Positions 21,346 to 42,514 of a stretch of 61,650 bases of DNA are shown piece by piece. Made by a program: the position numbers and the translations under genes. Under the pieces are notes generated by a model that had not been told where the DNA came from, did no database searches, and saw only the letters and a list, made by a program, of their open reading frames with translations. Each line of letters starts with the position of its first letter. The first letter of the stretch is position 1. The DNA is taken from positions 1-61,650 of the forward strand of contig JAFSXU010000030.1 of assembly GCA_017443895.1 (NCBI GenBank), written 5' to 3'. Source of the DNA: Clostridia bacterium. GTDB taxonomy: Bacteria; Bacillota; Clostridia; UBA1381.

Positions 21346-22956
21346 ATGAGAAAAACTGTATATGTGGCTTCTGTGGCGGTAATGTCAAGTCTGATATTCA
21401 CTACTGCTGCACAGGCGGACGATATATATGCCAAATATAACTTCAGCACAGATACCGTTAGCGTTTGGGGTAACACAGAGAGCTATAAGGAGCTTATGTC
21501 GTTTATGGTTTTACCCGACGGTGTGACACCGGAGAAGTTGACACCCGATACGGCAGACAAATACATTTTTTACGAGCTAAGGAATGAAAGTGATGGCTCG
21601 TTTGATTTTGATGTACAGCTTCCAAAGGATACAGATGCAGGGAAATACAATGTGTACGCATTTTATGATGACGATGTGATGAATACAGAGTTTACATATC
21701 TAAAAGATGACGACCTTAGGGACTTTGCCCAAAAGATAAATTCAATGAATGTATCGGGGGTTTGTGAGCTTTTAAAGAATAACAGTACCCAAATTGGACT
21801 AAAGGACGATAGTCTGCCGTATAGCGATCAAATTGCAGATTTTATAAAGTCGGCACAACCCTCAGGTGGCTATTCCTCAAATACACTTTTTGAGGAGCTT
21901 GGAAGAAGCTCGGCTCTTGCGAGGCTTATAAACGGTGCTGATATTAGTGATATTATGCGTGAGTACGGCGAGTATTTTGGCAAAGATGCATCGGATATTA
22001 TAGCTTCAATGTCCGATAATCAGAAGAATACATTTACAGAGTATCTAAAAAACAATCAAAAGACAAAGAACACAAAGCAGCTTTTTTACAGAGCCGTAAT
22101 GATGAGCGGTATCATAAACTCAGGTAACTATGTTGTCATGAGTGAGTATATAACAAAGTACAGAGCAAGTACAGGTCTTAGTGCGGATTTATCAAGGGCA
22201 ACGCCAAATACATATAATCAGCTCTATACCGCAATCAAAAATTCGGGAATAGCCACATTTGAGGCAATGGAGTCAAAGCTAAAGAGCCTTTTGTCTGCAA
22301 ATAATCAAAGCGCAGGCACAGGCGGCGGTGGAGGTGGCGGAGGTACAGTGAGTACCGGAGCTACACCGTCAGGCAGTGGCAATGCGGTTATTGCAACAAC
22401 AAGCGCAAATGATACAAGCGTTGTGCGCTTAACATACAACGATATCCAAAGCCATTGGGGAAGAACATATATAGAGAAGCTAAGTAAGCAGGGGATTATT
22501 GCAGGCTATGATGACGGAAACTTCCGCCCTGATAAGAATGTAACCCGTGCCGAATTTACAAAGCTTGTGGTTTCAACACTGGGTGAAAAATCAACAGCGG
22601 CAGTATCGTTTGGAGATGTATCACCAAGTGATTGGTACTATTCATATATATGCGCAGGCTATAGTAGCGGACTTATAACAGGTGATAACGGTAAATTCAG
22701 ACCAAATGACTTGATAACAAGGCAGGATGCGGCTGTGATTTTGTACAGAGCAATAAATGGGAATATAAACGGTGATGCTACACTTACTTACAGCGATGCA
22801 CAGAATATATCCGATTATGCAAAAGATGCTGTTTCATATCTTAGTGACAGAGGTTTGCTAAGCGGAAGTGACGGTAAGTTTCTGCCTAAGAACAATACAA
22901 CACGGGCACAGGCTGCAACAATGCTGTGTAAGCTGATAGAAAACATGGGGAGGTAA
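21346..22956 (+). CDS. Secreted S-layer homology (SLH) protein
   Basis: A 536-residue protein with a signal peptide (cut near A-Q-A-D, ~25). An N-terminal region (~26-320) of unknown function ends in a helical stretch. Then come a Gly-rich linker (eight glycines near residues 326-333) and three C-terminal SLH repeats at about 365-410, 422-468 and 480-530. The repeats show W-x-x-x-Y-I-x-x-L-x-x-x-G-I-I-x-G-Y and F-R-P-x-x-x-x-T-R-A-E patterns. SLH triplets bind pyruvylated wall polysaccharide, so it is wall-anchored. It follows the permease gene by 15 bases and abuts the next SLH-like gene. A scaffold or docking role for the adjacent lyases is inference. Confidence 0.88.
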   Translation: MRKTVYVASVAVMSSLIFTTAAQADDIYAKYNFSTDTVSVWGNTESYKELMSFMVLPDGVTPEKLTPDTADKYIFYELRNESDGSFDFDVQLPKDTDAGKYNVYAFYDDDVMNTEFTYLKDDDLRDFAQKINSMNVSGVCELLKNNSTQIGLKDDSLPYSDQIADFIKSAQPSGGYSSNTLFEELGRSSALARLINGADISDIMREYGEYFGKDASDIIASMSDNQKNTFTEYLKNNQKTKNTKQLFYRAVMMSGIINSGNYVVMSEYITKYRASTGLSADLSRATPNTYNQLYTAIKNSGIATFEAMESKLKSLLSANNQSAGTGGGGGGGGTVSTGATPSGSGNAVIATTSANDTSVVRLTYNDIQSHWGRTYIEKLSKQGIIAGYDDGNFRPDKNVTRAEFTKLVVSTLGEKSTAAVSFGDVSPSDWYYSYICAGYSSGLITGDNGKFRPNDLITRQDAAVILYRAINGNINGDATLTYSDAQNISDYAKDAVSYLSDRGLLSGSDGKFLPKNNTTRAQAATMLCKLIENMGR

Positions 22957-22959
22957 TTT

Positions 22960-25536
22960 ATGAAAAAAATACTTATTGTATTAACAGCAATTTCAATATT
23001 TGCCTCTTTAGCTGATTTTTCTGTTTTTGGTGCCGATACGGAGGTTAATACAAATTCAGAAATAAATGATGAATATTACGGCTTAATATCGTCAATATCC
23101 GATGCGGAGGAATATTTGCCCTATGATAGCCAAACTGTAACGAGGGGCGAATTTATAGAGGCGTTTGTAAGTGCCATGGGCTTTAGCAAAAGCATAGGCA
23201 AGGACATAAGCTTTTCAGATGTCCAAAGCGGTACATACTTATACGATGCACTGTCAATCGCAGTCGGTGCAGGGCTTATAGGAGATGGAGATAATTTCAG
23301 ACAAGACGATGCAATAAAAATAAACGAAGCGCTTAAAATCTGTGTATGCGCAACGGGGTACGGAGTGTACGCAAACCGTGGCGGCGGCTATCCTGACGGA
23401 TATATTGCAACAGGTACAAGTCTGCATCTGTTTGACGGTATAACATCATCCGGCGTGCTTAGCGGCAAGGATGCATACAAAATGATATATAACACTCTTG
23501 AGTCCGATTATTTGGAATACACAAACGGAAGTTACGAAAAGGGAAATGATAATGTTTTGTATGCATACAGAAACATTAAAAAGATAAAGGGCATTGTAAC
23601 CTCAAACAGTACCGCCGCAACGGGCAGTATTTCAGATTCACAGATTTCACCTATGAAGCTTGCAAATACCATAGGTATCGACTATGTAAGGTATAAAACC
23701 CAAACCGAGGAGTTTGACAAATACTTAGGCTATAGTGTTACAGCATATATTTGCGATGACGGTGATGATGTGTATGCAGTGTATCTGCACCCCAAACGGG
23801 ATAATAGTGAACAGACCTTTAAAGGTAAGACCTTTACATTCAAAGACAGCAAAATTGAACTGAAAAAGAATGAGGGCAAAAAATACACCATAAGTCCCGG
23901 TGCAGAGGTGATATATAACGGCAGAGCCGATTACGGGTATGACCTTTCAAACCTTGAAAAAGTCTGCGGCACTGTACGAATAGTAGATAATAACAGTGAT
24001 AATAAATACGATTATGTAATAATTGATGATTATTACTATATGAAGGTCGCAAGCTTTGATAAGGGCGATATAGTAATAAGAGATACAGAGGATAAAGACA
24101 AGGAAATAAATCTTGACGATCATTATATAAAATACAGCATATATAATGACGAAGAGCAAGCACCGGCGGAGCTTGGCGACATTATACAAGGCTCAATTCT
24201 TGCGATAAGGCGCTCGTCGGATAAATTGGTTGTGGATATAGTAATTATCGGAAGAATACTAAGCGGAACTGTAGAGCGGTCTTTTAATGACAGTGCAATA
24301 ATAAATAATGAAGAATACACGCTGTCGGATTACTTCCTGTCAAGCAGCCAAAACGGGCTTGGCGTAGGCAAGTATTCGGATTTCTATATCGGTATAAATG
24401 ATGAAATAGTAGCTTTGAGCTATGTGGAAAGTGCAATGCAGTATGCATATCTGATACGCACCTTTGATAAAAGTGATGAAGAGAGCTCAGGGATAAGGCT
24501 GTTTAATCAAAAAGGTAAAATGCTTGTTTTGGACCTTAGCGAAAAGGTAATTCTGGACGGAACAAGCCTTAGTGCAAAAAATGCCTGTGCAAGAGTGAAC
24601 GATAAACAGCTCATACGCTACGGTACGGACAGTGACGGCAAGGTGAAATGGATAGATACCGCCGTAAGTATAAGCTCATATGTTGATGATACAAAGCCTC
24701 TTGATGAATACAATCACCTTGTAAGACAGCGTTTTGCAGCGTCGTATTATTACAGGTCGGCGCAGTTTTATCCGTATTTTAATATACAGGACACCATTAT
24801 ATTCAGAATACCCAAAACGGTTGACGATTACGACGGATATGAGATAGGCTATTCATTTGTTGACGGTACCATAGCTGACGGAGATGTTGAGGCATACGAT
24901 GTAGGTCTTGACGGAACGGCGGAGGCACTGGTTGTATATGCTGACAGAGATGATGCAAATATTGACAGGGTAAATCCGAAAATCATGCTTGTCGAGGAGG
25001 CATATGTTGAGCGAAACGATGAAGGCGAGATGCGAAGAAAGGTATCGGGCTGGGTAAATGGCGAGTTTCGTGAGCTTTATTTAAAGGACGACCTTACAAT
25101 ATTAAAGCACAAGCAAAAATCCGTTATCGAGTCGGGCGACATCATAAGATATACGGAAAATGACGGCGAGATAACGGCGGCGGTTGTTGAGTTTATGGGA
25201 CAGACTCTTAGCCAGAACTCAGGCGATAACTTAGGATATTTCAATATCCGAAGCACCGATTGTCATTATCAAACAGGCAGTGTGTACTCGTTTGAGGGTG
25301 CGTGGGTATTGCTTTCGCATACCGAAACAGAGGACGGCTACAGCTACGAAACCAAAAATCTTGTGAATGTAAAGGTTCCTGATAGGATAGCAATATATAA
25401 CCGCACTTCAAAGAGCATAAGAACGGGTACAAAGGACGATATAAAAACCTATCGCAATTCAGGCAAGGATGCGAGCTATATACTTATAAAACAGTATTAT
25501 GCAAGATCGGATTTTGCCATAATATTTGAAAAGTAA
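22960..25536 (+). CDS. Large secreted protein with N-terminal SLH-like repeats
   Basis: An 858-residue protein with a signal peptide (about 1-24). SLH-like repeats lie around residues 45-170, with V-T-R-G-E-F-I-E-A-F-V and F-S-D-V. They are followed by ~680 residues, mainly predicted beta, that I do not recognise. They are rich in Tyr, Asp and acidic turns and carry repeated G-x-V and V-D-D-x-D-Y-V-I-I-D-D patterns. No catalytic motif is seen. It begins 3 bases after the preceding SLH gene and ends 18 bases before the first lyase gene. It is probably a wall-attached structural or binding partner of the lyases. Confidence 0.75.
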   Translation: MKKILIVLTAISIFASLADFSVFGADTEVNTNSEINDEYYGLISSISDAEEYLPYDSQTVTRGEFIEAFVSAMGFSKSIGKDISFSDVQSGTYLYDALSIAVGAGLIGDGDNFRQDDAIKINEALKICVCATGYGVYANRGGGYPDGYIATGTSLHLFDGITSSGVLSGKDAYKMIYNTLESDYLEYTNGSYEKGNDNVLYAYRNIKKIKGIVTSNSTAATGSISDSQISPMKLANTIGIDYVRYKTQTEEFDKYLGYSVTAYICDDGDDVYAVYLHPKRDNSEQTFKGKTFTFKDSKIELKKNEGKKYTISPGAEVIYNGRADYGYDLSNLEKVCGTVRIVDNNSDNKYDYVIIDDYYYMKVASFDKGDIVIRDTEDKDKEINLDDHYIKYSIYNDEEQAPAELGDIIQGSILAIRRSSDKLVVDIVIIGRILSGTVERSFNDSAIINNEEYTLSDYFLSSSQNGLGVGKYSDFYIGINDEIVALSYVESAMQYAYLIRTFDKSDEESSGIRLFNQKGKMLVLDLSEKVILDGTSLSAKNACARVNDKQLIRYGTDSDGKVKWIDTAVSISSYVDDTKPLDEYNHLVRQRFAASYYYRSAQFYPYFNIQDTIIFRIPKTVDDYDGYEIGYSFVDGTIADGDVEAYDVGLDGTAEALVVYADRDDANIDRVNPKIMLVEEAYVERNDEGEMRRKVSGWVNGEFRELYLKDDLTILKHKQKSVIESGDIIRYTENDGEITAAVVEFMGQTLSQNSGDNLGYFNIRSTDCHYQTGSVYSFEGAWVLLSHTETEDGYSYETKNLVNVKVPDRIAIYNRTSKSIRTGTKDDIKTYRNSGKDASYILIKQYYARSDFAIIFEK

Positions 25537-25554
25537 AAGGAGGGTGCAGGATAT

Positions 25555-28500
25555 ATGAAACAAAAGCTTAAACAAATTTTATCCGTAATTCTTGCCTCCT
25601 CCATGCTCATTATCGGAGTGCCTGCCTTTGCGCAGGATATATATCTTGTAGACATAGGCTTTGACGATGTTGTAACAAACGATTCCTCGCCTTATGTTTC
25701 CGTTGACGGATCAAGCAGTGCAAGGGTTGTCGAGGACGGTAAGAATAATAAATCATATACAGTGGAATGTGAGAATGCGGATAATACCCTAAAGGTGTTC
25801 CTGCCCGAATATATTGCTCCAAAGCAGTATGCGTTGCAGTTTGATATGCGAATTGAAGGCGCACCTGTGGAGGGAAAGATAACATTGTCAAACCCAGAGG
25901 GAATAGAAGAGGACTTAATAACCTTAGACGATAAAAGCGGTTTAAGGGCAGGGGACAATAAATTTTTGGGTTATGCTACATCAAAGCGTATGCAAACCGT
26001 AACCATCATGATTAACAATGAAATGAAATCCCATTCCATAGGTGTAAACGGAAAAATATACTATTTCAGACATGATATGGGCGTTGCACTTAGTAATGTT
26101 TCGGAGATTGCAATTTCTACCTATGCGGCAAAGGCAAAATCAAATCTGTATATAGATAATGTACGGATTTATGGCGGTACAAACTATATAAATAAGCCGA
26201 CAAAATCAAATTATAATGACAGCTCATTTGAGTACATACCTGAGGATGAGTCAGGTCTTGCGGACAAGGTATACTATAAGAACATATTAAACTCGTCATC
26301 TGCAATGTCTATGACAAAGCTTCAAAAGCGAAACACCATAGAATGGATTGGTGAGGGTGACGGAGGATTTTGCAGGATAACCAAAACAACGCCTGACGAT
26401 GCCATGATAGATATGAATATCGGTCAAACCACAAAAAGACTGATTGTTCAGGCCGATATAAGATTTAATAAGAGTGCTCCCGAAACGCTGTTCTATTTAA
26501 GAGATAACTCACAGGGTGCAACGGTTAATGTAGCACCGGCGACTGTTACGGGCGACAGGGTGGTTGCTCAGGGACACTCAAAGCAACTGAGAAAAAATGT
26601 ATGGTATACCGTTAGCGTGCAGTTAGACATTGCAAAGCACAAGTATAATGTCTGGGTAGACGGGGAGAAGATTGCCGAGGATTTGAGCTTTAGTACAGAT
26701 TTTCAAAATATTTCGGTCTGGAGAATGTATGTGGGCGGAAGCTCATACGGTTCAGTGGATATAGACAACCTTGCCCTGTACGGCGGTACAGAGCCAAGGG
26801 ATATTACAAACGATACCGTAACGGCAAAGAGCAGGTATTCGGATAAAACGGCACTTTCAATCCTTAACGGAAAGCGTGCTTTGGAGCTTTATGCAAGTAC
26901 GGAGTTTATAAACGGTGTAAAAACCAAGCTTGAAACACCCATAATTATCGAGCACTCAGATGCACTTGTTCCAAAAGATGTGTTTGAAAGATTTTATGGA
27001 GTAACGGTATCTCAAAACGGAAATGCTGTTTCTATTGGCGATACGAAAATGTCGCTTAACTCAAAAACCATAACCGTAGGCTCAAAATCATACACAATGA
27101 CCTGTGCGCCAAAGACCGAGAACGGTATTTTATATATACCCGCTCGTGCGTACGGTAAATATGCCGAGCCTAAGGGCTTTGTTGATGACGGACACGGAAT
27201 GTTGATTATCGGCAATAACCTCGATAAAAACGATGCAAGACTAAAGCAGGCAAATCTGTATATGTTCTTTGACAGAAAGAGTGCCGATACCTTAAAGGAG
27301 CAGTTTTTAAACAATACCGATAACGGTAATATGCACCCAAGGCTTATTGCAACAAAGGACGATTTTAACAGATTAAAGACTGAGGTAAGGACTGACAGCC
27401 AAAAATCCGAGTGGCATCAGAAGATTATAAATCAGGCAAATAACTATATAACCCGTGATCATCTCGAGTATAAAATAACTGACGGCAGACTGTTAGATGT
27501 TGCAAACGGCGCACTCCTTAAAATGGAGTGGTTAGGTTATGCGTATCAGATGACGGGGGACAGAAAATATGCAGATTACGGTATAGCCGAGCTTTTAAAT
27601 CTGTGTTCCTTCTCCGACTGGCACCCCGACCATTTCCTTGACACGGGAACACTTGCCTCAGCAGTTGCCATAGGCTTTGACTGGCTCTATGATGCAATGA
27701 CGGATGAAGAACGAGAGACCATTTCAAAATCGGCACAAAAGCTTGCTTTGGAGCCTGCAAAATCGGCGTATTTTGCAAGCGCAACCTTCAATGATTTCTG
27801 GGCGGATACCGAAACCAACTGGGGAATTATAGTAAACGGCGGTATTGCAAACCTTGCCATAGCAACCGGCGAATATGATACCGACGAGAAAATGGAAATT
27901 CTCTATAATGCGCTAAGGTCAATAGAGATACCGTGGTACAGAATAGCGCCTGACGGAGCGTGGTACGAGGGTACGGGCTACTGGGGTTATCTGCTTACAC
28001 ATCTTAGCCTGTTTATGAGCGCTTATAAGACCTCAATGGGCGAGACCTTTGGCGAGAACTATATGGGAATGCGAGAGTACGGATATTTCCAGGCGTATTT
28101 CCAAGGCCCTGACGGCTTGTCAAATAACTTCCATGATGCCGATGAGGTAACGGTTGATAATCCGGGACAGTTCTACCTTGCAGGCGAATTTGATGATGAA
28201 TCGCTTATGCTTTACAGGCTTGACCAAATGCGGAAGTTCAATATTGCGCCTACGATATTCGATGTTATATGGTGTGATGCCGGGCTTTCGGATAAAAAAT
28301 CGTCAATTGAGCTTGAAAAGGAAAAATATTACGGCGAAACGGAGTTTGTAGCATTAAGGGGCGACTGGAACGATGACAATTCATCATGGCTTTCGTTCCA
28401 TGGCGGTTATTCAAACAATGCGCATGACCATGTTGATGCAGGAACTTTTGTGTATAACATAGGCGGTGTAAGGTGGGCAGTTGAAACAGGCAGAGAAATG

Positions 28501-29838
28501 CTAAGTTATGTAAGCGACGCTCAGAACCCGTCAATTCTGGCAGGCTATACCTCAAAATATTTCTACAGGCGAAAGGGCGAGGGACATAACATAGTTGTAA
28601 TTGACCCTGACGCAAACTTAGAGCAGGATATATCACAGTTTGCAGAGGTGTCCCGTCCTGTAGGCGGAGTAAGTGGTTCATATGCAACAATAGACCTTAC
28701 AAGTGCATATAACCAAAAGGTAAATAAATATGTACGGGGCTATATGCTTACCGATAACCGGCGCACATTAACTGTTCGTGACGAGATAGAGTTAAAGGGA
28801 AAGTCCTCAATGCATTGGTTTATGCATACAAGGGGCGATATAAGGATAATTGATAACAATACCGCCCTCATATATCAGGACGGAAAAATCCTTAAGCTCA
28901 AATTCCTCTCAAATGCCGAGAGTGCGAATTTAAAAGCTGTTGAGGCAAAGTCTCTGCCGACAACTCCGCAGTTTGAGAATACACCAAATCTTGAATTTAC
29001 AAAGATTGACTACGAGGTAACGGGCTCCGGTGCGGTAAATATAACCGTAAAAATGTCGTTACTCGACGAGATCGGTTCACAGAGCGGAGTGGATGATGTA
29101 AGTATTTCCGATTGGGGTACGCTTATAAATAAGCCTGCACAGGCTTTTGATACCAAAGACGGCAGTGCATACTTATCGGGTATTTATGCTGACGGTGAAA
29201 TGATAAAGGACTTTTCACCAAATAAATACAGCTACACCGTATCAAAGCTTGAAAACGGCAGATCGCCTGAGATTACCATTGGTAACGGCGACAGAGCCGA
29301 GCGTGATACTTATACAAGGTTTGACGGCAGTGAGGCTGTGGTATTCACACTTACAGATACAAACGGTAAAAAGACGGCATATACCGTAAATATTACAGAC
29401 TATAATATAAGAAGTCTCACGGTATATAACAAGTACTCACTTACAGCTATTGATGCAAGCAGTGAGCAGGTAACCGAGGATATAGACAACTGTAAGGAAC
29501 ACAGTACCGATAACGACTATACCACACGCTGGAGTGCTAACGGACCTAATGAATGGTGTATCTATGACTTGGGTGAGGTAAAGACAATCGATGCATTTGC
29601 GGCAGCATTCTGGATGGGCAGTCAAAGACATTTCAAGTTTGAGATTGCCGTATCTGATGACGGGCGTAACTTTACCAAGGTTTTAAATACCGTATCAGAT
29701 GTATATACCGAGGACGCTTTGGTGTATGTACCGGACAGCACTGTACGGGCAAGGTATATCAAATTTATCGGACATGGCTCCAATGCAAACGATTGGAACA
29801 ATGTCATTGAGTTTATGGCATTAACGAAGAAAGAGTGA
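25555..29838 (+). CDS. Secreted heparinase II/III-family polysaccharide lyase, multi-domain (lyase 1)
   Basis: A 1427-residue secreted enzyme. Order: signal peptide (~1-26); two LamG/jelly-roll-like domains (~30-215 and 235-415, each ending in a D-N-x-x-x-Y-G-G segment); a Cu-amine-oxidase-N-type stalk domain (~455-560). Next is the alpha/alpha-toroid of heparinase II/III/DUF4962 lyases from H-P-R-L-I-A-T (~593), including N-T-E/T-N-W-G and E-G-T-G-Y-W-G-Y. Then come the beta-sheet domain with A-H-D-H-V-D-A-G-T-F (~955) and R-R-K-G-E-G-H-N, a cadherin-like domain (~1190-1275) and an F5/8 type C domain (~1290-1420). The family cleaves uronate-containing polysaccharides by beta-elimination. Substrate unknown. 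Paralogue at 37427. Confidence 0.88.
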   Translation: MKQKLKQILSVILASSMLIIGVPAFAQDIYLVDIGFDDVVTNDSSPYVSVDGSSSARVVEDGKNNKSYTVECENADNTLKVFLPEYIAPKQYALQFDMRIEGAPVEGKITLSNPEGIEEDLITLDDKSGLRAGDNKFLGYATSKRMQTVTIMINNEMKSHSIGVNGKIYYFRHDMGVALSNVSEIAISTYAAKAKSNLYIDNVRIYGGTNYINKPTKSNYNDSSFEYIPEDESGLADKVYYKNILNSSSAMSMTKLQKRNTIEWIGEGDGGFCRITKTTPDDAMIDMNIGQTTKRLIVQADIRFNKSAPETLFYLRDNSQGATVNVAPATVTGDRVVAQGHSKQLRKNVWYTVSVQLDIAKHKYNVWVDGEKIAEDLSFSTDFQNISVWRMYVGGSSYGSVDIDNLALYGGTEPRDITNDTVTAKSRYSDKTALSILNGKRALELYASTEFINGVKTKLETPIIIEHSDALVPKDVFERFYGVTVSQNGNAVSIGDTKMSLNSKTITVGSKSYTMTCAPKTENGILYIPARAYGKYAEPKGFVDDGHGMLIIGNNLDKNDARLKQANLYMFFDRKSADTLKEQFLNNTDNGNMHPRLIATKDDFNRLKTEVRTDSQKSEWHQKIINQANNYITRDHLEYKITDGRLLDVANGALLKMEWLGYAYQMTGDRKYADYGIAELLNLCSFSDWHPDHFLDTGTLASAVAIGFDWLYDAMTDEERETISKSAQKLALEPAKSAYFASATFNDFWADTETNWGIIVNGGIANLAIATGEYDTDEKMEILYNALRSIEIPWYRIAPDGAWYEGTGYWGYLLTHLSLFMSAYKTSMGETFGENYMGMREYGYFQAYFQGPDGLSNNFHDADEVTVDNPGQFYLAGEFDDESLMLYRLDQMRKFNIAPTIFDVIWCDAGLSDKKSSIELEKEKYYGETEFVALRGDWNDDNSSWLSFHGGYSNNAHDHVDAGTFVYNIGGVRWAVETGREMLSYVSDAQNPSILAGYTSKYFYRRKGEGHNIVVIDPDANLEQDISQFAEVSRPVGGVSGSYATIDLTSAYNQKVNKYVRGYMLTDNRRTLTVRDEIELKGKSSMHWFMHTRGDIRIIDNNTALIYQDGKILKLKFLSNAESANLKAVEAKSLPTTPQFENTPNLEFTKIDYEVTGSGAVNITVKMSLLDEIGSQSGVDDVSISDWGTLINKPAQAFDTKDGSAYLSGIYADGEMIKDFSPNKYSYTVSKLENGRSPEITIGNGDRAERDTYTRFDGSEAVVFTLTDTNGKKTAYTVNITDYNIRSLTVYNKYSLTAIDASSEQVTEDIDNCKEHSTDNDYTTRWSANGPNEWCIYDLGEVKTIDAFAAAFWMGSQRHFKFEIAVSDDGRNFTKVLNTVSDVYTEDALVYVPDSTVRARYIKFIGHGSNANDWNNVIEFMALTKKE

Positions 29839-29843
29839 TTGAT

Positions 29844-32676: not shown

Positions 32677-33891
32677 ATGAAAACAACAGTATTAAAGAAA
32701 GTCACAGCAATAGCCTGTGCATCGGCAATGAGCGCATTGCTTTTGCCTACAGCATTTGCGGCAGCTCCGTTTTCAACAAATTTCAATGACGGCACTGTAC
32801 CGAGTGAAGTAGTGGTTGCCAACGCAACGGCAACAAATGTTGACGTCCCGGGCTGTGGACGGTTTGCAGACGATAAGTCATACCACATTATGGCAAAAAA
32901 CGCTGCTTATGCAGAGCCGAACGTTGAATTTGATTTTTATAAAGGTGTAAAAACTTTGGGTAATCAAGCTATACAGTCTGCAACATTGGAATTTTCAATG
33001 CTATACAGCAATATAGGAGACTGCGAATTGTTACTGCATGAAGATGTGTCTACTAATATCGACACATTGGGTTGGATTGCCAATTTAGATTATTTAAAAA
33101 TACAGAGCGGCAAGGTTTACGCAATGGCATCTGATAAAACAGCAAGTGTTGACACAGGAATTGCTGTTGAGGAAAACAAGTGGTACAGAATAGCCGTAGA
33201 GCGTTTTGAAGACGGAGGCAGAAAAGTAAATGTATATTTTAACGGACAGAAAATAGTTGATGGTTTTGACACAGGCGGCAATGGTGCATATGACAAATCA
33301 ACGTATTTCAAACTTAAATCACCGTCAACAAACGGTATTGTAAGAAGCGTATATCTTGACGATGTATCCGTATATGAGGGCAGATACAGTGCGGCAGCAG
33401 ATGCTCCGACATATACGTCAAGCGGTGTATCAAACGGCACACTTTCGGTTCCTGTAGGCACAACTGCAGCCCAGGCAGCCGCAATGGTAACACCCACAGG
33501 CAGCGGCACACCGTTTGTTATGAAACAGCAGACAGGTGCTGCACAGCTTGTTACAGGTGCGGTATCAACGGGTAATGTGATTGTAATACCGTCAACAAGC
33601 GGTAAGGCAATGAGCTATGTAAATATCGCTACATATGATGTAGCTCCTACATTTGTAGGCACACCTGAAAAGGTAACAGCTGACGGAATAGATGCGGTTG
33701 CATTCTTCGGCGAAATAACCGACGCAGGAACATCATCTGATTGGGGTATCACAGTATCGTTGCCTGAGCTTGGAAGCCGTGATATTGTAATTGGCAAAGA
33801 GGTAAAAGAGGGCGGTTTGCCGTTTGGCGTAATTCTTACAAATTTAAAGGACGGTTGGCGCGAAGCTATGACGGCAGCCTATAAAAACTGA
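32677..33891 (+). CDS. Secreted protein with one copy of the cysteine-pair module
   Basis: A 404-residue protein with a signal peptide (ends near A-F-A-A, ~27). One copy of the repeated module (~32-235) has P-G-C-G-R-F, F-D-F-Y-K-G-V, I-G-D-C-E-L, K-W-Y-R-I-A and D-D-V-S-V-Y-E-G. The companion module follows (~245-320), with G-T-T-A-A-Q-A, then a C-terminal domain (~325-404) with A-F-F-G-E-I-T. No catalytic site recognised. AAAGGAG precedes the start. The 157-base upstream gap has no gene. It holds a weak CGACACC/GGTGTCG inverted pair (32538-32601) and could carry an internal promoter. Probable role: surface glycan binding. Confidence 0.72.
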   Translation: MKTTVLKKVTAIACASAMSALLLPTAFAAAPFSTNFNDGTVPSEVVVANATATNVDVPGCGRFADDKSYHIMAKNAAYAEPNVEFDFYKGVKTLGNQAIQSATLEFSMLYSNIGDCELLLHEDVSTNIDTLGWIANLDYLKIQSGKVYAMASDKTASVDTGIAVEENKWYRIAVERFEDGGRKVNVYFNGQKIVDGFDTGGNGAYDKSTYFKLKSPSTNGIVRSVYLDDVSVYEGRYSAAADAPTYTSSGVSNGTLSVPVGTTAAQAAAMVTPTGSGTPFVMKQQTGAAQLVTGAVSTGNVIVIPSTSGKAMSYVNIATYDVAPTFVGTPEKVTADGIDAVAFFGEITDAGTSSDWGITVSLPELGSRDIVIGKEVKEGGLPFGVILTNLKDGWREAMTAAYKN

Positions 33892-33909: not shown

Positions 33910-34074
33910 ATGAAAAAGATTTATGAAAGACCTGTTGCAGAAATTGAAAAATTTGCAGCAGAGGATATTTTAACAACATCTACTATTGACAACCTTTCGG
34001 AACAGCTTGTGAAAAACGGTGTTGAGGTCCAAGATATAACAACGGTTGATGCACAGAGCTTATTTGGCGAATAA
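33910..34074 (+). CDS. 54-residue small protein of the Y-x-x-P / D-I-L-T-T-S type
   Basis: The ATG at 33910 follows AGGAGG with 9-base spacing, a strong start, and the frame runs 54 codons to TAA. The product begins M-K-K-I-Y-E-R-P-V-A-E-I-E-K-F, continues A-E-D-I-L-T-T-S, and ends in an acidic, cysteine-free tail. Short proteins with this kind of opening occur widely in Clostridia without assigned function, from general recollection. The Y-x-x-P start recalls leader peptides of some ribosomal peptides, but no maturation genes are present. It sits 18 bases after a module protein gene, so co-expression is likely. Confidence 0.6.
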   Translation: MKKIYERPVAEIEKFAAEDILTTSTIDNLSEQLVKNGVEVQDITTVDAQSLFGE

Positions 34075-34091: not shown

Positions 34092-34199
34092 TGTAGGGCA
34101 GGGGCTTGCTCCTGCCGTCATATACCTGTATGTATGACGGGAGCAAGCCTAACCCTGTAAAGGATATGTTATAAGTGCAAGCAATGTTTATTGCTTGCA
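34092..34199. repeat. Inverted-repeat element plus perfect hairpin in a 218-base spacer
   Basis: The arms 34103-34122 and 34133-34149 are inverted copies (GGCTTGCTCC...CGTCATA), extended outward to 34092 and 34159 with mismatches. The left arm also folds on itself (34097-34116). Just downstream TGCAAGCAAT (34176-34185) and ATTGCTTGCA (34190-34199) form a perfect 10-bp stem with a 4-base loop. There is no T-run, so these look like REP/MITE-type or mRNA-processing elements rather than terminators. Confidence 0.65.
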
Positions 34200-34292
34200 G
34201 TTACAACAAATCTTACAAAGTACCCAAGCAAGGTGCAAAATACATCTTGTATATATAAAGTTATAAAAAATGAGAAAGGAGCGGGGTTAATT

Positions 34293-37200
34293 ATGAAAAA
34301 ATCTCACAGAAAAAGTATTGCGATGCTATTGTCAATGGCGTTGAGTGCGACACTCATTACCGTGCCGATAACGGCAGGTGCCGAGCCGGCAGTACGGGGA
34401 ACGGTAGTTGATGAGGATCATTTTGTTGCAAGCTCATCATACACAATGGCAGGCGATACGACCTATGCAAACAAGAAAACGGTAACGGGAGTGTTTGGCA
34501 GAGAGGATACGGACTATTCCTTTGACCTGTACACCCAAGGTCTGCCTGCAGGTACGGCCGTAAGTAACCGTTACAATTTTATGGCAGGGTACAGCTTTGA
34601 CACTCAGGACACATTTACAAGGGAATTTTCCATCGGTGCTGACGGGTATTTTGATGCTGTAAATTTCCTCATAAGATGTAACTTAAATCCTGCAACGGCA
34701 AGGAGCACATACCTTGAGGCGGCTTCGCTGTCATCTAACGGTACAGTAAAGGCAAACGGTACGGCGGTATCGGGCTTGGAGTTCAGGAAAAATCAGTGGT
34801 ACAGAATGGCAATAACTGTTTATCCGCAAACCTTAAAGTATGATTTATACTTTAACGGAACCAAGATTGTTGACAATCAGAGTATAACGCCGGGGTATAG
34901 TGACGGTTATTCCATAGCAAGCTTTGACTGGTTCCAAATTCAGCCTGTATACAACGATAGCGTTGCATTTGAAAGAGACGGCAATGTTTATATAGACGAT
35001 ACCGTTACATATATGGGCACATATGTACCTGAGGACGGCTCAGAAGCAAAAATTCAAACCGAGGACTTTGAAGTAAAAGAGGGCAGTGGTATAATAACAG
35101 TGCCAAAGGGTACGGATATATACGATTTTGACGACTGTATTGAATACGGCGATGCAACTTTAACGGTGTATACAGACGATACATATTCAGACACCGTAAG
35201 CGGAAAGTTAAAGACGGGCAATATGGCGGTAGTTGTATCTCCAAACGGTATAGTATATAATTATTATGCAATTATCCTTGAGGGCGAGAGCCCAACTCCT
35301 GCACCTGCAACTCCTGCACCTCCTACTCCGTCTCCTACGCCTACACCTGTTGTGTACTATGCAACGGACTTTAATGACGGCAAATTAGTTGACGGTGTAA
35401 CAGTTTCAAGCAATGCAACCTGGTCGGGACTTGATGAGGCGGGCTGCGGTAAGTTCGCAGGCGATAAAACATATCATTTTATCGCTAAAAATGGTGCATA
35501 TGCAGAGGTTTCATTCTCCTTTGATTACTATAAGGGAGTTGATACCTTATGCGGTGACGGAAGCATACAGCAAAAGACACTTGAATTTTCAATGCTCTAT
35601 GACAATATAGGCGATTGCGAGCTTGTACTCCATGGCGATATTGCAAGAAACAAGGCAACCCACGGCTGGGCGGGAAGCTATGATTACTTAAAAATTCAAA
35701 GCGGAAAGGTATACGCAATATCGGGAACTAATGATGCACAGACAATGGTTGATACAGGTATTACGGTTGATGCGGATAAATGGTACAGAGTAGCTTTAGA
35801 GTATATAGAAACCTCAAGCGGAAGAAATGTAAATGTATATTTTAACGGTCAAAAGGTAACCGAAAACTTTAATACCGGCGGTAACAGTGTATATGATAAA
35901 TCAACCGTATTAAAGCTCAAATCTCCGTCAACATCTGATTTAAGAAGCGTATACATTGACGATGTTGCGGTTTATGAAGGATTTTATAATGCTACTGCCG
36001 ATACTGTAGAATATTCGTCCGATACTATAGAAAACGGCGAAATAAGCGTTCAGGCAGGAACAACGGCGGATACGGTATTGGCAGGTATTACAACAACAGG
36101 TGACAAATTTGTAATCTCAAAGCTCACAGGTGTGGCACAAACGGTTACAGGAGAGATCTCAAATGGTAATCTGGTAGTTATAAAATCACCAAGCGGTAAA
36201 TCATTTGAATATATAAATCTTGATGTTGCTGAGCCTGATCCAACTCCTACACCCGAGCCGGGAAGTAATATCTATTTTGAAACAGACTTTAATGACGGTG
36301 AATTAGTTGACGGTGTAACAGTTTCAAACAATGCAGCATGGACAGGTATTGACGAGCCGGGCTGTGGTAAAATTTCGGGTGATAAAGCATATCATATGGC
36401 GGTTAAAAATGCCTCATATGCCGAGGCATCATTCGCCTTTGACTTCTATAAGGGCGTTGACACCTTAGCAGGTGGGGAAAGTATACAGCAAAAGACCTTG
36501 GAGCTTTCGTTCTTATACAATGGAATAGGCGATTGCGAGCTTGCACTGCACGGCGATATAGCAAGAAATGCCTCCACTCACGGCTGGGCAGGAAGCTATG
36601 ACTATCTGAAAGTACAGAGCGGTAAGCTGTATGCAATATCAGGAAATAATGATGCCCAAGCATTGGTTGATACAGGCATAAGTCTTGAGGAGAACAAGTG
36701 GTACAGAGCTGCGGTGGAATACAGGTTACAAGAGGGTGGAAGATATGTTAATGTATACTTTAACGGTCAAAAGGTAACCGAAAACTTTAATACGGGCGGT
36801 AACAGTGTATACGATAAATCAACCGTGTTAAGGATTAAGTCCTCCTCCACATCAACCGTAAGAAATCTCTTTGTTGACGATGTTGCGGTATATGCGGGCT
36901 TATATGATCCTACAGGCGATACTGTAGAATATTCATCAAGTGATGTAAATGACGGAAAGATAAGCACCGAAACAGGAACAGGAGCAGATACGGTATTGTC
37001 AAAAATCACGACCGATGGCGATAAATATGTTATAGAGAAGCTCACAGGTGTTGCAAAACCTGTTACGGGTAATGTATCAAACGGAAATATCATAGTTGTA
37101 AAATCACCAAACGGCAAGGGCTTTGATTATATTACAATAGATCAGTTTGACCTTGATAGTGAGATAGAAATAACGACAGATGCCGAATATGCAACAGCAA

Positions 37201-37430
37201 CCGTAAATATGTATGTCCCTGTATCATCAACGGCAAAAACAGCGGTGCTTGCAATAGCTTCATATGATGAGAATGGCTCTCTTACGGCGGTTAATTACGA
37301 GGAATATACGGTAATGGGAGGTATGATGCTTGAGGCATATATCCCTGTACCCGAGGCGGGTTCAGTTATAAAAGCAATGCTTTGGGATCAGAATATGAAA
37401 CCGTATTTACCCCAAAAGGTGTTTGAATGA
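34293..37430 (+). CDS. Secreted protein with two tandem cysteine-pair modules
   Basis: A 1045-residue protein. The chosen ATG at 34293 follows AAAGGAGCGGGG and begins with M-K-K-S-H-R-K-S and a signal peptide (ends ~30); an upstream in-frame extension lacks both. Order: a divergent LamG-like domain (~35-245), a companion-type domain (~250-330), a Pro/Thr linker (~332-350). Then module B (~352-560), companion (~570-645), a short P-T-P-T-P linker, module C (~659-868), companion (~875-950), and the C-terminal module (~955-1045) ending A-M-L-W-D-Q-N-M-K. Modules B and C are very similar at protein and DNA level. No enzyme motif; surface binding protein. Stop overlaps the next start (ATGA). Confidence 0.8.
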   Translation: MKKSHRKSIAMLLSMALSATLITVPITAGAEPAVRGTVVDEDHFVASSSYTMAGDTTYANKKTVTGVFGREDTDYSFDLYTQGLPAGTAVSNRYNFMAGYSFDTQDTFTREFSIGADGYFDAVNFLIRCNLNPATARSTYLEAASLSSNGTVKANGTAVSGLEFRKNQWYRMAITVYPQTLKYDLYFNGTKIVDNQSITPGYSDGYSIASFDWFQIQPVYNDSVAFERDGNVYIDDTVTYMGTYVPEDGSEAKIQTEDFEVKEGSGIITVPKGTDIYDFDDCIEYGDATLTVYTDDTYSDTVSGKLKTGNMAVVVSPNGIVYNYYAIILEGESPTPAPATPAPPTPSPTPTPVVYYATDFNDGKLVDGVTVSSNATWSGLDEAGCGKFAGDKTYHFIAKNGAYAEVSFSFDYYKGVDTLCGDGSIQQKTLEFSMLYDNIGDCELVLHGDIARNKATHGWAGSYDYLKIQSGKVYAISGTNDAQTMVDTGITVDADKWYRVALEYIETSSGRNVNVYFNGQKVTENFNTGGNSVYDKSTVLKLKSPSTSDLRSVYIDDVAVYEGFYNATADTVEYSSDTIENGEISVQAGTTADTVLAGITTTGDKFVISKLTGVAQTVTGEISNGNLVVIKSPSGKSFEYINLDVAEPDPTPTPEPGSNIYFETDFNDGELVDGVTVSNNAAWTGIDEPGCGKISGDKAYHMAVKNASYAEASFAFDFYKGVDTLAGGESIQQKTLELSFLYNGIGDCELALHGDIARNASTHGWAGSYDYLKVQSGKLYAISGNNDAQALVDTGISLEENKWYRAAVEYRLQEGGRYVNVYFNGQKVTENFNTGGNSVYDKSTVLRIKSSSTSTVRNLFVDDVAVYAGLYDPTGDTVEYSSSDVNDGKISTETGTGADTVLSKITTDGDKYVIEKLTGVAKPVTGNVSNGNIIVVKSPNGKGFDYITIDQFDLDSEIEITTDAEYATATVNMYVPVSSTAKTAVLAIASYDENGSLTAVNYEEYTVMGGMMLEAYIPVPEAGSVIKAMLWDQNMKPYLPQKVFE

Positions 37431-40400
37431 TAAGGGCAAGGATTTTATTATCGTATTTGCTTGCACTCACGATGCTTTTAGCATCTGTGAGTGCGGTAAG
37501 TGCCGATAATACGGAGATTTATTTTTCGGCGGATTTTAACGATGCTTCGGTGCCGTCACAAATCACGACCGCAAATGCAACATGGGCAGGGGTTACAGAG
37601 CCCGGCTGTGGAAAATTTTCAGGCGATAAGGCATATCAGTTGACAGCCAAAAATGCCAAATACAGCGAGGTATCATTTTCATTTGACTTCTACAAAGGTG
37701 TTGACACCTTGTGCGGTGAGGGCAGTATAAGGGAAAAGACTTTGGAATTTTCGTTTCTCTATAGCAATATCGGGGATTGCTCCTTGATATTACACGGCGA
37801 TATTTCAAGGAATAAATCAACTCACGGCTGGCCGGGAAGCTATGATTATCTCAAAGTGCAGAGCGGAAAAGTATATGCAATATCGGGAAATAACGATGCT
37901 CAGGAAACTGTGGATACAGGCATAAGCGTTGAGGCAAACAAGTGGTACAGGGTTGCGCTTGAATACTACGAAAATTCAAACGGAAGAAATGTAAATGTAT
38001 ACTTTAACGGCACTCCAATAGTCGAAGGTTTTAATACCGGCGGTAATACCGTGTATGACAGATCCACGGTTTTAAGACTTAACTCGTCATCGACCTCTGT
38101 GGCAAGAAATATATTTATTGACGATGTTGCGGTTTATCAAGGGCTGTACGATAAAGATGTGGAAGCACCTCAATATTCATCAGATGAAGTGTTTGACGGT
38201 GAGATAACCGTACCGGAAGGGACAACCGCAAGCGAGGTTACATCAAAAATCACATCTGACGGATCTTCATATGTTATAAAGCAATTAACAGGTGTTGCGC
38301 AGCAGGTTTTAGGCGAAGTATCCGACGGAAATATGGTTATTGTCCCGTCAAAAAACGGAAAGGCATTTGAATATATCAAAATAAATGTCAAAAAAGAGGA
38401 GATACCCGACTTTTTAAAGAACAAAACCGCCCTACAGCCGTATGCGAACAAGATTTTCTATTCAGGCCAAAAGCATGATACAAGCTATAACGCTATTATA
38501 AGTGATGACGGAGTGCTTATATCAAAGCCCGATTTTGAAACGCTGTTTAATACATCTGTTTCGGTTTCGGGAAACGATATTTTGGTAGGTCAGGGTATGA
38601 AAATGATGCTTAATACCACCGCATATACCTATAACGGCACAAGCGGTAATTTGGGCGTTGCACCCATAATAAGGGACGGAGTTTTGTATCTCCCGTTTGA
38701 AGAATACGGCTCTTTTATAAGTGGATATGTAAGCGACAGTCACGGTCTTGTAGTAGTGGGAGGTGACAGTGCAACATATCAGGAGCTTAAATCGGCAAAC
38801 AGGTATATGTTCTTTGATAGGGACACAGAAAATGAGCTGAAAGCAAAATTTTTTAACCGCACAAATTCAGGGCAAACACACCCCAGAATTATTGCAGATA
38901 AGGCTGATTTTACAAGACTAAATTCCGAGCGCAGAACAGATGCCAATAAGAAGCAGTGGTATTCAAATATTTTGTATACCGCAAATTCAATTATTGAACA
39001 AGACCCTGTAACATACACAATAAAAGACGGGAGATTGCTTGACAGTGCCAATGCCGCACTTTTACGGCTTGAATATCTGGGCTTTGCGTATCAAATGACG
39101 AAAAGTGCAAAATATGCCGAAAGAGGAATAGCGGAATTGGAGGCAATATGTGCATTTCCTGATTGGAACCCGTCGCATTATCTTGATACGGGAACATTAG
39201 CATCGGCATTTGCGATAGGCTTTGACTGGCTCTATGACGCAATGAGCGAGGAGCAAAGAGAAGCACTTGCAAATTCCGCAAAGGAAAAAGCCCTTGATAC
39301 GGCAATCCTTGCATATGAAGGAAATGCGACATTCAACAGCTTCTGGACGGATACAGAAACAAACTGGGGCGTTATAGTAAACGGCGGTATTGCAAACCTT
39401 GCCCTTGCAACGGGCGAGTATAATACCGATACTGCAATGAGGGCGCTTGGCTATGCACTAAAATCTATCGAATCAACATGGTACCGGTTTGCGCCTGACG
39501 GTGCATGGTTTGAAGGACCGGGATACTGGAGCTACAATCTTACGCATCTTAGCCTGTTTATGGCAAGCTATGAAAAGGTAATGGGTACGCCTTTTGGTAA
39601 GGACTTTATGGGACTTTCAAAATATGCTGAGTTTAAAGCGCATTTTGAGGGACCCGACGGGCTGCCGAACAATTTTCATGATTCAACCGATGCGCATGTA
39701 GAAAATTACGGTCAGTTTTATCTTGCAAAGATATATAACAATCCGTCGCTTATGATAAGCCGTATTGCAGAAATGAGCAAATATAATATACGGCCGAATG
39801 TAATGGATATTATATGGTGCGATGCAGGCTTATCGGGAGATTTGGAACAGCTTGACCTGGAAACGGATAAGTATTTTAGAGAAACGGAATTTGTGTCAAT
39901 GCGAAGTGGCTGGGACGCTGATGCCGCATGGGTATCATTCCACGGCGGAACATCAAAGGATGCGCATGACCATATAGACCCCGGCACATTTGTTTATACG
40001 GCAGGCGGAGTACGCTGGGCAATAGATTTGGGACAGGAGCCTTTAAGCTATGTAGGAAGTGCTGATAACCCGGCAATACAGGCAGGATATAACTCGTATT
40101 ATTTCTACAGGCGAAAGGGTGAAGGTCATAATATTGTAGTGATAAATCCAGACGATAAGCTTGAAATCGACCAATACGCCTTTGTGCAGGCAAAAAAGCC
40201 TGTTACAAACGGAAAAACAAGCATTTCATCGGTTGATTTGTCGGGAGCGTATGTAAAAAATGTAAACTCGTATATCAGGGGCTATAAATTATCCGATAAT
40301 AAGCGTACCTTGACAGTCCGTGATGAAATATCGCTAAAAGGTCAGTCAACTATGCATTGGTATATGCACACAAAGGGCGCTGTTACGGTGGTTGACAACA

Positions 40401-40966
40401 GAACTGCCGTTATAGCTCAAAACGGCAAAAGGCTTGTAATGAAGTTTTTGACAAATGCTCCCTCATCAACGCTTAGCATTGCGGAGGCTAAGCCTTTGCC
40501 AACATCGCCACAGTTTGAAAACACCGTGAATACAGGCGTTAGCAAAATTGATTTTTTGGTAAACGGGTCGGGAAATGTCAACATAACGGTCAAAATGGCG
40601 CTTGAAGGTGAGACAGGGGATGACGACATAGTTGATAATTCATCAATAAGCGACTGGTATGAGAATATTTACAAAAATGAGTTTAATCTGTATATAAACG
40701 GTGTAAAATCCAATACCCTAAAAAGCGGAACAATCAAGGGTGAATATATAATGTCGCCCGTTCTCCAAAATAAAGAATACAGATTTATTATGGCGGTTTA
40801 TAAAAACGGCATTTTGCAAAATGTTCTTTTGGATAAAAAATATGCAGAGGATACAGCGACCTTCTCAAAAGCATATGAGCTTACGGACACAGAAAATGTG
40901 ACGGTAAAAATGATGCTTTGGGATAATGATATGAAATACTGTAAAGAGGTAAAAGAATTTAAATAG
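37427..40966 (+). CDS. Secreted heparinase II/III-family lyase with cysteine-pair module (lyase 2)
   Basis: A 1179-residue secreted enzyme, paralogous to lyase 1 over the catalytic part. Order: signal peptide (~1-26); module D (~28-240) with P-G-C-G-K-F and I-G-D-C-S-L; companion module (~245-322); Cu-amine-oxidase-N-type domain (~340-445). The toroid runs from H-P-R-I-I-A-D (~485) with D-T-E-T-N-W-G-V and E-G-P-G-Y-W-S-Y-N. The beta-sheet domain follows, with A-H-D-H-I-D-P-G-T-F (~845) and R-R-K-G-E-G-H-N, then a C-terminal module (~1085-1179) ending M-M-L-W-D-N-D-M-K. It should depolymerise a uronate-containing glycan by elimination. It lacks the F5/8C and cadherin-like domains of lyase 1. 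Confidence 0.88.
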   Translation: MIRARILLSYLLALTMLLASVSAVSADNTEIYFSADFNDASVPSQITTANATWAGVTEPGCGKFSGDKAYQLTAKNAKYSEVSFSFDFYKGVDTLCGEGSIREKTLEFSFLYSNIGDCSLILHGDISRNKSTHGWPGSYDYLKVQSGKVYAISGNNDAQETVDTGISVEANKWYRVALEYYENSNGRNVNVYFNGTPIVEGFNTGGNTVYDRSTVLRLNSSSTSVARNIFIDDVAVYQGLYDKDVEAPQYSSDEVFDGEITVPEGTTASEVTSKITSDGSSYVIKQLTGVAQQVLGEVSDGNMVIVPSKNGKAFEYIKINVKKEEIPDFLKNKTALQPYANKIFYSGQKHDTSYNAIISDDGVLISKPDFETLFNTSVSVSGNDILVGQGMKMMLNTTAYTYNGTSGNLGVAPIIRDGVLYLPFEEYGSFISGYVSDSHGLVVVGGDSATYQELKSANRYMFFDRDTENELKAKFFNRTNSGQTHPRIIADKADFTRLNSERRTDANKKQWYSNILYTANSIIEQDPVTYTIKDGRLLDSANAALLRLEYLGFAYQMTKSAKYAERGIAELEAICAFPDWNPSHYLDTGTLASAFAIGFDWLYDAMSEEQREALANSAKEKALDTAILAYEGNATFNSFWTDTETNWGVIVNGGIANLALATGEYNTDTAMRALGYALKSIESTWYRFAPDGAWFEGPGYWSYNLTHLSLFMASYEKVMGTPFGKDFMGLSKYAEFKAHFEGPDGLPNNFHDSTDAHVENYGQFYLAKIYNNPSLMISRIAEMSKYNIRPNVMDIIWCDAGLSGDLEQLDLETDKYFRETEFVSMRSGWDADAAWVSFHGGTSKDAHDHIDPGTFVYTAGGVRWAIDLGQEPLSYVGSADNPAIQAGYNSYYFYRRKGEGHNIVVINPDDKLEIDQYAFVQAKKPVTNGKTSISSVDLSGAYVKNVNSYIRGYKLSDNKRTLTVRDEISLKGQSTMHWYMHTKGAVTVVDNRTAVIAQNGKRLVMKFLTNAPSSTLSIAEAKPLPTSPQFENTVNTGVSKIDFLVNGSGNVNITVKMALEGETGDDDIVDNSSISDWYENIYKNEFNLYINGVKSNTLKSGTIKGEYIMSPVLQNKEYRFIMAVYKNGILQNVLLDKKYAEDTATFSKAYELTDTENVTVKMMLWDNDMKYCKEVKEFK

Positions 40967-40981
40967 GAGGATTATGATAAT

Positions 40982-42514
40982 ATGAAAAAAGTTGTAAAGC
41001 TAATGAGCTTGGTGCTCTCAATTGGAATGCTGGCATCATGCGGAAGTAACACTACATCAGGGACAAAGGTTGATAATTCCGACTCGGAATTTCTTATTGC
41101 CCCGGAAATGACGGAGCTTACTCTGTTTTCAATGGCGGAAACCCGTATAGACGACACGCCTGTATGGAACAAGATAGCAGAGCTTACCAATATTAAAATA
41201 AAAACAGTTTCGTCATCGTCAAACAGCGATCCTGACACCGCACTTAACACTATGCTTATGTCCGGCGATATTCCTGATCTTATCTTTAGCACAAAGATGA
41301 AGCAGTTTGCAAACCAGTACGGTCCCGACGGTGCATTCGCAAGGATTGACGAGCTTGTAAGTGACGAAACCCCAAATCTTAACAAGCAGCTTGAAAGAAA
41401 AGAGATAAGCTCCTTTATCACAAACTATGACGGGCATAAGTATTATATGTGCGGAGTGAACCCCGATACCGTTGCGGCAGGCTGGATAATAAGACAGGAC
41501 TGGCTTGATAAGCTTAATTTAAAAGCACCTGAAAATCCTGAAGAGTTTTATCAGGTAATGAAGGCGTTTAAAACTCAGGATCCTAACGGCAACGGACAGG
41601 CTGACGAGGTGCCGTATATTTCAAGATTTGGCACGGTTGACGATCTGGACTTCATCTTTGACGCGACTCCCGAATGGGCAGTTGATGATAACGGCAAGGT
41701 TTATTACGGACCTACAAGACCTGAGTTCAAGACTGCATATGAAAATATTTCAAAGTGGTATAAGGAAGGGCTTATAGACGAGGAAATATACACAAGAGGC
41801 GCAAAAACAAGAGATAAGATGTACGGCGAGAACAAGAGCGGTATAATTCACGACTGGTTTGGCTCTACCATGCAGTTTAACGATATTTTGACCGAGGATA
41901 TCCCGGGGTTTAAGCTTGTAGCAATCGCACCGCCGAATGAGAGCAAGAAGGAATATACAAGACGAGATGTTGCGATTACTCAGGGCGTTTCGATAGGTGC
42001 AAACTCAAAGAATAAGGAATATGCAATAAAGCTTCTTGATTTCCTGTTCTCAGAAACGGGAAGCAGACTCTTAAACTTTGGTCTTGAGGGAGAGCAGTAC
42101 GATTTAGTAGATGGAAAGCCTGTTTTTAAAGATTATGTTATCCATGGTGACAAGACCGCTATTCAGGTCTTAAACGATGCAGGTGCTTGCGGTCTTGTAT
42201 ATGAACAGGATTTTGATTATGAAAGACAGTGGCTTACAGAAGAGGCACAAAAAGGCGCCGATATGTATATCAACAACGGTTATCTCATAACCAAATTCCC
42301 CGGACTTAATTATACAGAAGAGGAATACAATGAGCTTAACAAGATGATTACAAACATCGATACCTTCCGCGCCGAGCGGACACAGCAGTGGGTATTCGGT
42401 ACGGCAGATGTAGATGCAACATGGGACGATTATCTTGCCGAGCTTGATAGACTTGGAATTAAGCGTGCAACCGAAATTCAACAGACTGCATATGACCGCT
42501 ATATTAAGAATTGA
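40982..42514 (+). CDS. Extracellular oligosaccharide-binding lipoprotein (ABC SBP, LipO type)
   Basis: A 510-residue solute-binding protein. The lipoprotein signal ends in L-A-S-C with lipid-modified Cys20. The body has the family 1 fold: F-S-M-A-E-T-R, W-N-K-I-A-E-L-T-N-I-K-I, M-L-M-S-G-D-I-P-D-L, and Q-D-P-N-G-N-G-Q-A-D-E-V-P, a Ca2+-binding-like loop common in LipO proteins. It would capture oligosaccharides for the permeases at 19505 and 20455, the only ones in the window. It begins 15 bases after lyase 2 behind AGGAGG, so lyase and binder are co-expressed. Confidence 0.92.
   Translation: MKKVVKLMSLVLSIGMLASCGSNTTSGTKVDNSDSEFLIAPEMTELTLFSMAETRIDDTPVWNKIAELTNIKIKTVSSSSNSDPDTALNTMLMSGDIPDLIFSTKMKQFANQYGPDGAFARIDELVSDETPNLNKQLERKEISSFITNYDGHKYYMCGVNPDTVAAGWIIRQDWLDKLNLKAPENPEEFYQVMKAFKTQDPNGNGQADEVPYISRFGTVDDLDFIFDATPEWAVDDNGKVYYGPTRPEFKTAYENISKWYKEGLIDEEIYTRGAKTRDKMYGENKSGIIHDWFGSTMQFNDILTEDIPGFKLVAIAPPNESKKEYTRRDVAITQGVSIGANSKNKEYAIKLLDFLFSETGSRLLNFGLEGEQYDLVDGKPVFKDYVIHGDKTAIQVLNDAGACGLVYEQDFDYERQWLTEEAQKGADMYINNGYLITKFPGLNYTEEEYNELNKMITNIDTFRAERTQQWVFGTADVDATWDDYLAELDRLGIKRATEIQQTAYDRYIKN

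Follow-up and report, generated by a model that had tools for sequence, protein, structure and literature searches.

A pair of SLH proteins beside anchorless PL35 lyases in a polysaccharide-utilization locus of Clostridia

The retention of secreted enzymes near their importer is poorly described for Gram-positive gut bacteria other than those that use a cellulosome or carry an S-layer homology (SLH) domain or a sortase signal on the enzyme in cis. Here, nine genes were analyzed at positions 21346-42514 of a 61,650-nucleotide stretch ("the window"), which is the start of contig JAFSXU010000030.1 of the Clostridia bacterium assembly GCA_017443895.1. They encode two SLH proteins (SLH1 and SLH2), two polysaccharide lyases of family PL35 (lyases A and B), non-catalytic secreted proteins and a solute-binding lipoprotein. 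The nearest characterized systems found are those for xylan, beta-glucan and starch in Paenibacillus sp. JDR-2, in which the enzyme itself carries the SLH trimer (PMC4765114). They resemble the present locus in combining an ATP-binding cassette (ABC) importer, a secreted multimodular enzyme with carbohydrate-binding-type modules, SLH wall attachment and oligosaccharides at the surface, and solve the same problem by placing the SLH on the enzyme. In contrast, no SLH is present on the lyases studied here, and two distinct SLH proteins are encoded next to them.

A cellulosome with an SLH-anchored scaffoldin is similar in that its SLH wall-anchoring proteins are separate from the enzymes. Nevertheless, the locus has no cohesin or dockerin, and dockerins are nearly absent from the host genome. 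In Bacteroidota, the surface complex of a polysaccharide-utilization locus (PUL), made of SusCD, surface glycan-binding proteins and a lyase, is similar in that each glycan has its own locus, in which surface proteins that diverge fast lie in pairs beside the importer. Lyases and intracellular finishing enzymes are common to both, whereas the present locus has neither a TonB transporter nor SusD and instead has wall-bound SLH proteins with an ABC importer. Genome work on Monoglobus pectinilyticus is reported to have revealed many surface enzymes. Lactobacillus S-layer-associated proteins (PMC7090030) resemble the proposed arrangement in description, being secreted and attached without covalent bonds to a protein layer at the cell surface, but they do not come as pairs tied to one locus with its own enzyme and importer. 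The literature searched, which did not cover most subscription journals, contained no account of a paired SLH cassette.

We propose, at a probability of about 0.55 for the mechanism as a whole, that the surface stage of this PUL is organized around a wall-bound SLH1/SLH2 pair. Both proteins would bind pyruvylated secondary wall polymer via their SLH trimers and form a non-catalytic platform beside the importer. The two secreted lyases and their partners with LamG and F5/8C modules would gather at this platform, held by the pair, by each other or by polysaccharide captured by the partners. By beta-elimination, the lyases would cleave a polysaccharide that contains uronate. The lipoprotein and the ABC permeases would then import the unsaturated oligosaccharides, and enzymes of glycoside hydrolase (GH) types GH88/105, GH127, GH36 and GH31 would finish them. 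The locus most likely represents a wall platform supplied in trans for a glycan-specific surface apparatus, the physical assembly of which we infer. With the pair conserved across several Clostridia families, the arrangement suggests a non-cellulosomal way of retaining enzymes at the surface.

Structure and recurrence of the SLH1/SLH2 pair

SLH1 matched the Pfam SLH family over three stretches (E 3e-43) and has a signal peptide. SLH2 matched no Pfam or NCBIfam family, its SLH region being too divergent for Pfam, and its family profile matched the SLH structures of Sap and SpaA in the Protein Data Bank (PDB; E 1e-9). Both proteins were modeled as single chains (pLDDT 78 each). The SLH1 model aligned with the SLH structure 3pyw (Z 23.4), and its Ig-like domain scored Z 11.0. 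In the SLH2 model (pTM 0.52) the SLH trimer reached Z 14.8 (rmsd 2.9, 140 aligned), while the OB-like barrels scored Z 8.8 (residues 491-567) and about 7 (669-745), the level of common arrangements. The first-pass annotation had read both proteins as SLH wall-anchored, and this was borne out for SLH1 by Pfam and for SLH2 by the family profile and predicted fold. CsaB-type pyruvyl transferases (PF04230) are encoded in the host genome on contigs C21, C6 and C46 and presumably modify the wall polymer bound by SLH.

SLH2 relatives were detected in 69 of 70 genomes of the host's family. At E below 1e-70, matches extended to about 20 families of the class (77 of 291 genomes). Within the host genome, 12 of the 16 SLH2-family genes are fused to an SLH-bearing gene or lie no more than 125 bp from one, against a chance expectation of about 4% per gene (binomial p about 1e-13 to 1e-14 for 2000-2500 genes, with 48 SLH-bearing frames counted in all; the pairs were scored on selected stretches of the genome). 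SLH1 and SLH2 form one polypeptide in six loci, two in the host genome (L194 and L202) and the others on contigs G055:C26, G011:C145, G011:C254 and G012:C191.

A co-occurrence search for the SLH pair and the lyase across Clostridia showed that the combination recurs across genera and families, so that the lack of co-occurrence named in the first-pass annotation as refuting its proposal was not observed. A PL35 gene adjoins an SLH pair in eight genomes of the family (seven genera), the pair coming after the lyase in one of them (G050), and in five loci from three other families of the class. The order permease A-permease B-SLH1-SLH2-PL35 is kept across genera of the family and also in three further families of the class, and ABC permeases also lie upstream of the pair in L072/73, L077, L078, L081 and L246-L248. 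A PL35-anchored scan of named genomes recovered 13 Clostridia loci in which the pair lies near the lyase gene, but found it at no locus of Paenibacillus, Verrucomicrobiota, Planctomycetota or Bacteroidota.

SLH2 and the lyase also diverged together. Distance matrices of SLH2 and PL35 from 18 cassettes were correlated (r 0.85, Mantel p 2e-4). For 12 of the 18, both proteins had their closest counterpart from another genome in the same cassette, and these include cassettes of the multi-cassette genomes G055 and G011. Since physical linkage explains joint inheritance, this co-divergence shows a unit and not contact.

SLH2-type proteins might instead be S-layer or wall-structural proteins, with each locus providing a version that makes the wall fit for exporting large enzymes but does not hold them. 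Arrays of OB-like barrels fit a structural role, as does a slow, stand-alone SLH2 orthologue that occurs in many members of the family and in other families, often beside an SLH gene. Pair-type genes, however, exist in many copies (the host genome has about 16 SLH2-family genes), diverge fast and lie inside clusters of ABC genes and carbohydrate-active enzymes (CAZymes), and we consider a purely structural role unlikely. In a tree of 62 proteins, pair-type SLH2 was separated from the stand-alone orthologue (3 label changes versus 19.7 when shuffled); only this broad split was used because many branches are long. The stand-alone orthologue was seen unpaired at 15 loci, frequently with a further SLH gene close by on the other strand, and may be a relative of the pair class with a housekeeping role in the wall or S-layer.

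Pair loci of the host and other genomes also hold PL11, alginate-lyase-like, beta-helix/GH141-type, GH38 and GH10 enzymes, usually with ABC genes, PL35 being the commonest partner among the loci examined, some of which had been selected by PL35 or SLH2 similarity. SLH2 was therefore rejected as a lyase-specific protein, and the pair is better described as a general surface cassette for many glycans. The label "surface polysaccharide-lyase apparatus" of the first-pass annotation proved too narrow. As a conserved, multicopy, fusable element between importer and enzymes, the pair can serve as a locus marker, comparable to susCD in Bacteroidota, for finding PULs in uncultured Clostridia. A further step would be to regard it as a docking platform, non-cellulosomal and general among Clostridia, and as a Gram-positive counterpart of the SusCD complex, with one version per glycan, SLH2 as the specificity-carrying scaffold and anchorless enzymes binding directly. 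This extension is tentative, and we doubt it more than we credit it.

The PL35 lyases and their proposed retention

A profile of 11 lyases matched PDB entries 8khw (E 1.2e-112), 8khv (E 2.7e-109) and 9o3q (E 4e-93). The secreted lyases first described as "heparinase II/III-type" are more precisely PL35 (8khw/8khv, E 1e-112). The catalytic domain, the Asn/Tyr/His triad and the Mn ligands are shared with the PL35 enzymes GAGase II and VII (PMC12088678; PDB 8khv, 8khw). The triad of GAGase II, Asn192/Tyr246/His401 (PMC12088678), corresponds to N755/Y809/H957 in lyase A and N646/Y700/H847 in lyase B and is invariant in all 11 lyases. Its Mn ligands His403, Asp405 and His457 are kept in both, while Asp421 corresponds to D867 in lyase B and to Glu977 in lyase A (window 28483-28485). 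Unlike the GAGases, the lyases of the locus are large multimodular enzymes, and they have Thr at the position of Asn191, a position that affects specificity in GAGase II (PMC12088678).

The substrate is most likely a uronate polysaccharide, of glycosaminoglycan or plant type, because the lyases are PL35-type and the downstream neighbor belongs to the GH88 family. One of the structures closest to this neighbor, 4ce7, is a rhamnoglycuronyl hydrolase, and a plant-type uronate polymer is therefore equally possible.

Neither lyase has an anchor of its own, as previously noted: no SLH was found by Pfam, no sorting signal on inspection of the C termini, and no lipobox. Pfam searches at E up to 1 detected no dockerin or cohesin in the proteins of the locus. 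A cellulosome was rejected on this ground; a small set of cohesins and dockerins occurs elsewhere in the genome. It could be supposed that highly diverged cohesin/dockerin-like pairs connect SLH1 or SLH2 with the lyases, the more so as genuine cohesins and an SLH-cohesin protein (contig C64) are encoded outside the window. Only three dockerins exist genome-wide, however, two of them adjoining cohesins and none near the window, and a cryptic cellulosome is considered very improbable. Structure searches with the SLH1 and SLH2 models listed no cohesin among their matches, parts of both models being barely covered. The small set lies at G000:C64:43281-46205, C22:12137-13204 and C33:14248. Cohesin matches were found in 56 of the 70 family genomes, and the host genome is almost devoid of dockerin-bearing enzymes.

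In other taxa, related lyases carry anchors in cis. Orthologues of lyase A (51-52% identical) in two Clostridia without the pair, one labeled Ruthenibacterium and one Lachnospiraceae, end in a sortase-type signal (TPETG, APKTG; L094:7790-12757 and L095:7640-12904), and a Paenibacillaceae PL35 has SLH in cis (L140:7046-13837). Judging from these sequences, a PL35 lyase may bear a cis anchor in taxa that lack the pair. In the host genome, one PL11 has SLH in cis (L261), whereas the PL11 in an SLH2 locus is anchorless (L196).

Lyases and non-catalytic partners share modules, as the first-pass annotation had stated. These are LamG/ConA-like (49-64% identical among themselves) and F5/8C modules, that is, glycan-binding types, together with a C-terminal module of about 90 residues in the proteins starting at 29835, 34191 and 37427. 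The latter belongs to no Pfam family, and no PDB relative was found. It was rejected as a general dockerin-like tag because of its low mean identity (29%), its approximately 18 occurrences in the genome and its position, which is sometimes near the N terminus. As the shared modules are of glycan-binding types, no scaffold is needed to explain the sharing. The earlier proposal of a non-cellulosomal, wall-bound scaffold is partly supported; it loses that argument and keeps the support of co-occurrence, fusions and the lack of cohesin, dockerin and sorting signal. Moreover, SLH1 proteins of other loci include the type of module found on the non-catalytic partners (L085), and larger proteins in the SLH1 position have Big_5, LamG or C-terminal modules at L085, L252 and L254-L256; the window encodes these modules separately.

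A serious alternative dispenses with a protein scaffold: the lyases would be free or bound to substrate via their own LamG and F5/8C modules, SLH1 and SLH2 would be wall-bound glycan adhesins near the importer, and any co-localization would arise through the shared polysaccharide. The nature of the modules common to lyases and partners, the multimodular Paenibacillus PL35 enzymes without anchor or pair, and the Ig/FN3-like domain of SLH1, typical of adhesins, are all consistent with this. However, SLH2 consists of OB-like barrels with no recognized glycan-binding module, and LamG-type modules were not found in either SLH protein of the window. The joint divergence of SLH2 and lyase also weighs against it, although substrate-specific adhesins would fit this as well. 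On balance, we consider the adhesin explanation plausible but less probable than a platform formed by the pair.

Several observations weigh against that platform. Neither a binding interface nor a docking motif linking the SLH proteins to the lyases was found, operon linkage alone yields co-inheritance, and the shared LamG and F5/8C modules more simply mean shared glycan binding. In Paenibacillus, about 11 PL35 lyases, which is most of them, lack an anchor as well as the pair, and surface retention is therefore not obligatory for PL35. In addition, the lyase of one pair locus (L080) also has SLH in cis, as do other enzymes of the host genome (PL11 at L261 and a GH42-like enzyme at L264).

Layout of the locus and accompanying genes

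The host genome is a 2.72 Mb metagenome assembly, 99.5% complete, from an uncultured, gut-type member of the Clostridia. Re-derivation of the order from open reading frames (ORFs) confirmed the uninterrupted run of SLH proteins, lyases, module proteins, 54-residue peptide and lipoprotein described earlier, and placed all of them on the + strand (Table 1). The gaps are 0-220 bp, the largest being about 160 bp (before 32677) and 220 bp (before 34293); no terminator-like site beyond chance was seen in these two, and an Rfam search gave no match. The run is flanked by two ABC permeases upstream and the GH88-family enzyme downstream, and is part of a larger utilization cluster of about 10.6-54.3 kb. 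An ABC importer, a regulator and several CAZymes, the hallmarks of a Gram-positive PUL, are found together in this one locus.

Table 1. Features of the utilization cluster (window positions)
Feature	Position	Strand	Evidence or remark
Sugar catabolism genes: fucose-isomerase-like, FGGY kinase, DUF4432, class II aldolase, AraC, ADP-ribosylglycohydrolase-like, GH1	10662..19288	+	
ABC permease A (BPD_transp_1)	19463..20440	+	Pfam; synteny
ABC permease B	20455..21330	+	Pfam; synteny
SLH1: signal peptide, Ig/FN3-like, helical domain, Gly linker, C-terminal three SLH	21346..22956	+	
SLH2: signal peptide, divergent SLH trimer (residues ~32-204), OB-like small-barrel array	22960..25536	+	
Lyase A (PL35): 2 LamG-like, stalk (PF07833), PL35 catalytic, F5/8C	25555..29838	+	
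894-aa non-catalytic secreted protein: Big_5/Ig, LamG-like, C-terminal module	29835..32519	+	Likely start ATG 29844
404-aa secreted single LamG-like protein	32677..33891	+	Weak Laminin_G_3; 49% identical to LamG region of lyase B
54-aa peptide	33910..34074	+	MKKxYxxPxxEIxxFxxEDIxTxS family
Non-catalytic secreted protein: 3 LamG-like, C-terminal module	34293..37430	+	Likely true start ATG 34293; ORF opens at 34191 (1079 aa, 34191-37430)
Lyase B (PL35): LamG-like, stalk-like, PL35 catalytic, C-terminal module	37427..40966	+	
Solute-binding lipoprotein (SBP_bac_1, lipobox LASC)	40982..42514	+	Pfam; N terminus inspected
GH88/GH105-type unsaturated uronyl hydrolase, no signal peptide	42579..43601	+	Pfam GH88 E 3e-72; closest PDB 5noa, 4q88, 4ce7
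FAD-dependent oxidoreductase	43643..45451	+	
GH127 (first)	45541..47343	+	
GH127 (second)	47340..49208	+	
AraC-type regulator	49210..49974	+	
GH36-type (Melibiase)	49991..51883	+	
GH31	51897..54281	+	

The Cu_amine_oxidN1 "stalk" domain (PF07833) has 40 matches in the host genome and is present on several secreted enzymes of SLH2 loci, including PL35, PL11, beta-helix and alginate-lyase-like proteins (L196:946-3924, L202:11601-13610). The ADP-ribosylglycohydrolase-family protein (16396-17985) lies between the AraC regulator and GH1, and its substrate may be a sugar instead of ADP-ribose. A type I restriction-modification system (HsdM, HsdS, HsdR; 54820-60867) directly follows the utilization locus.

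The 54-residue peptide belongs to a family defined by its N-terminal motif and lacking a signal peptide, with eight copies in the host genome and members in 14 of the 70 family genomes. Besides the copy in the window, members were located at L202:543-746, L203:2626-2847 and L208-L226. Their genes usually lie directly 3' of a larger, co-directional gene.

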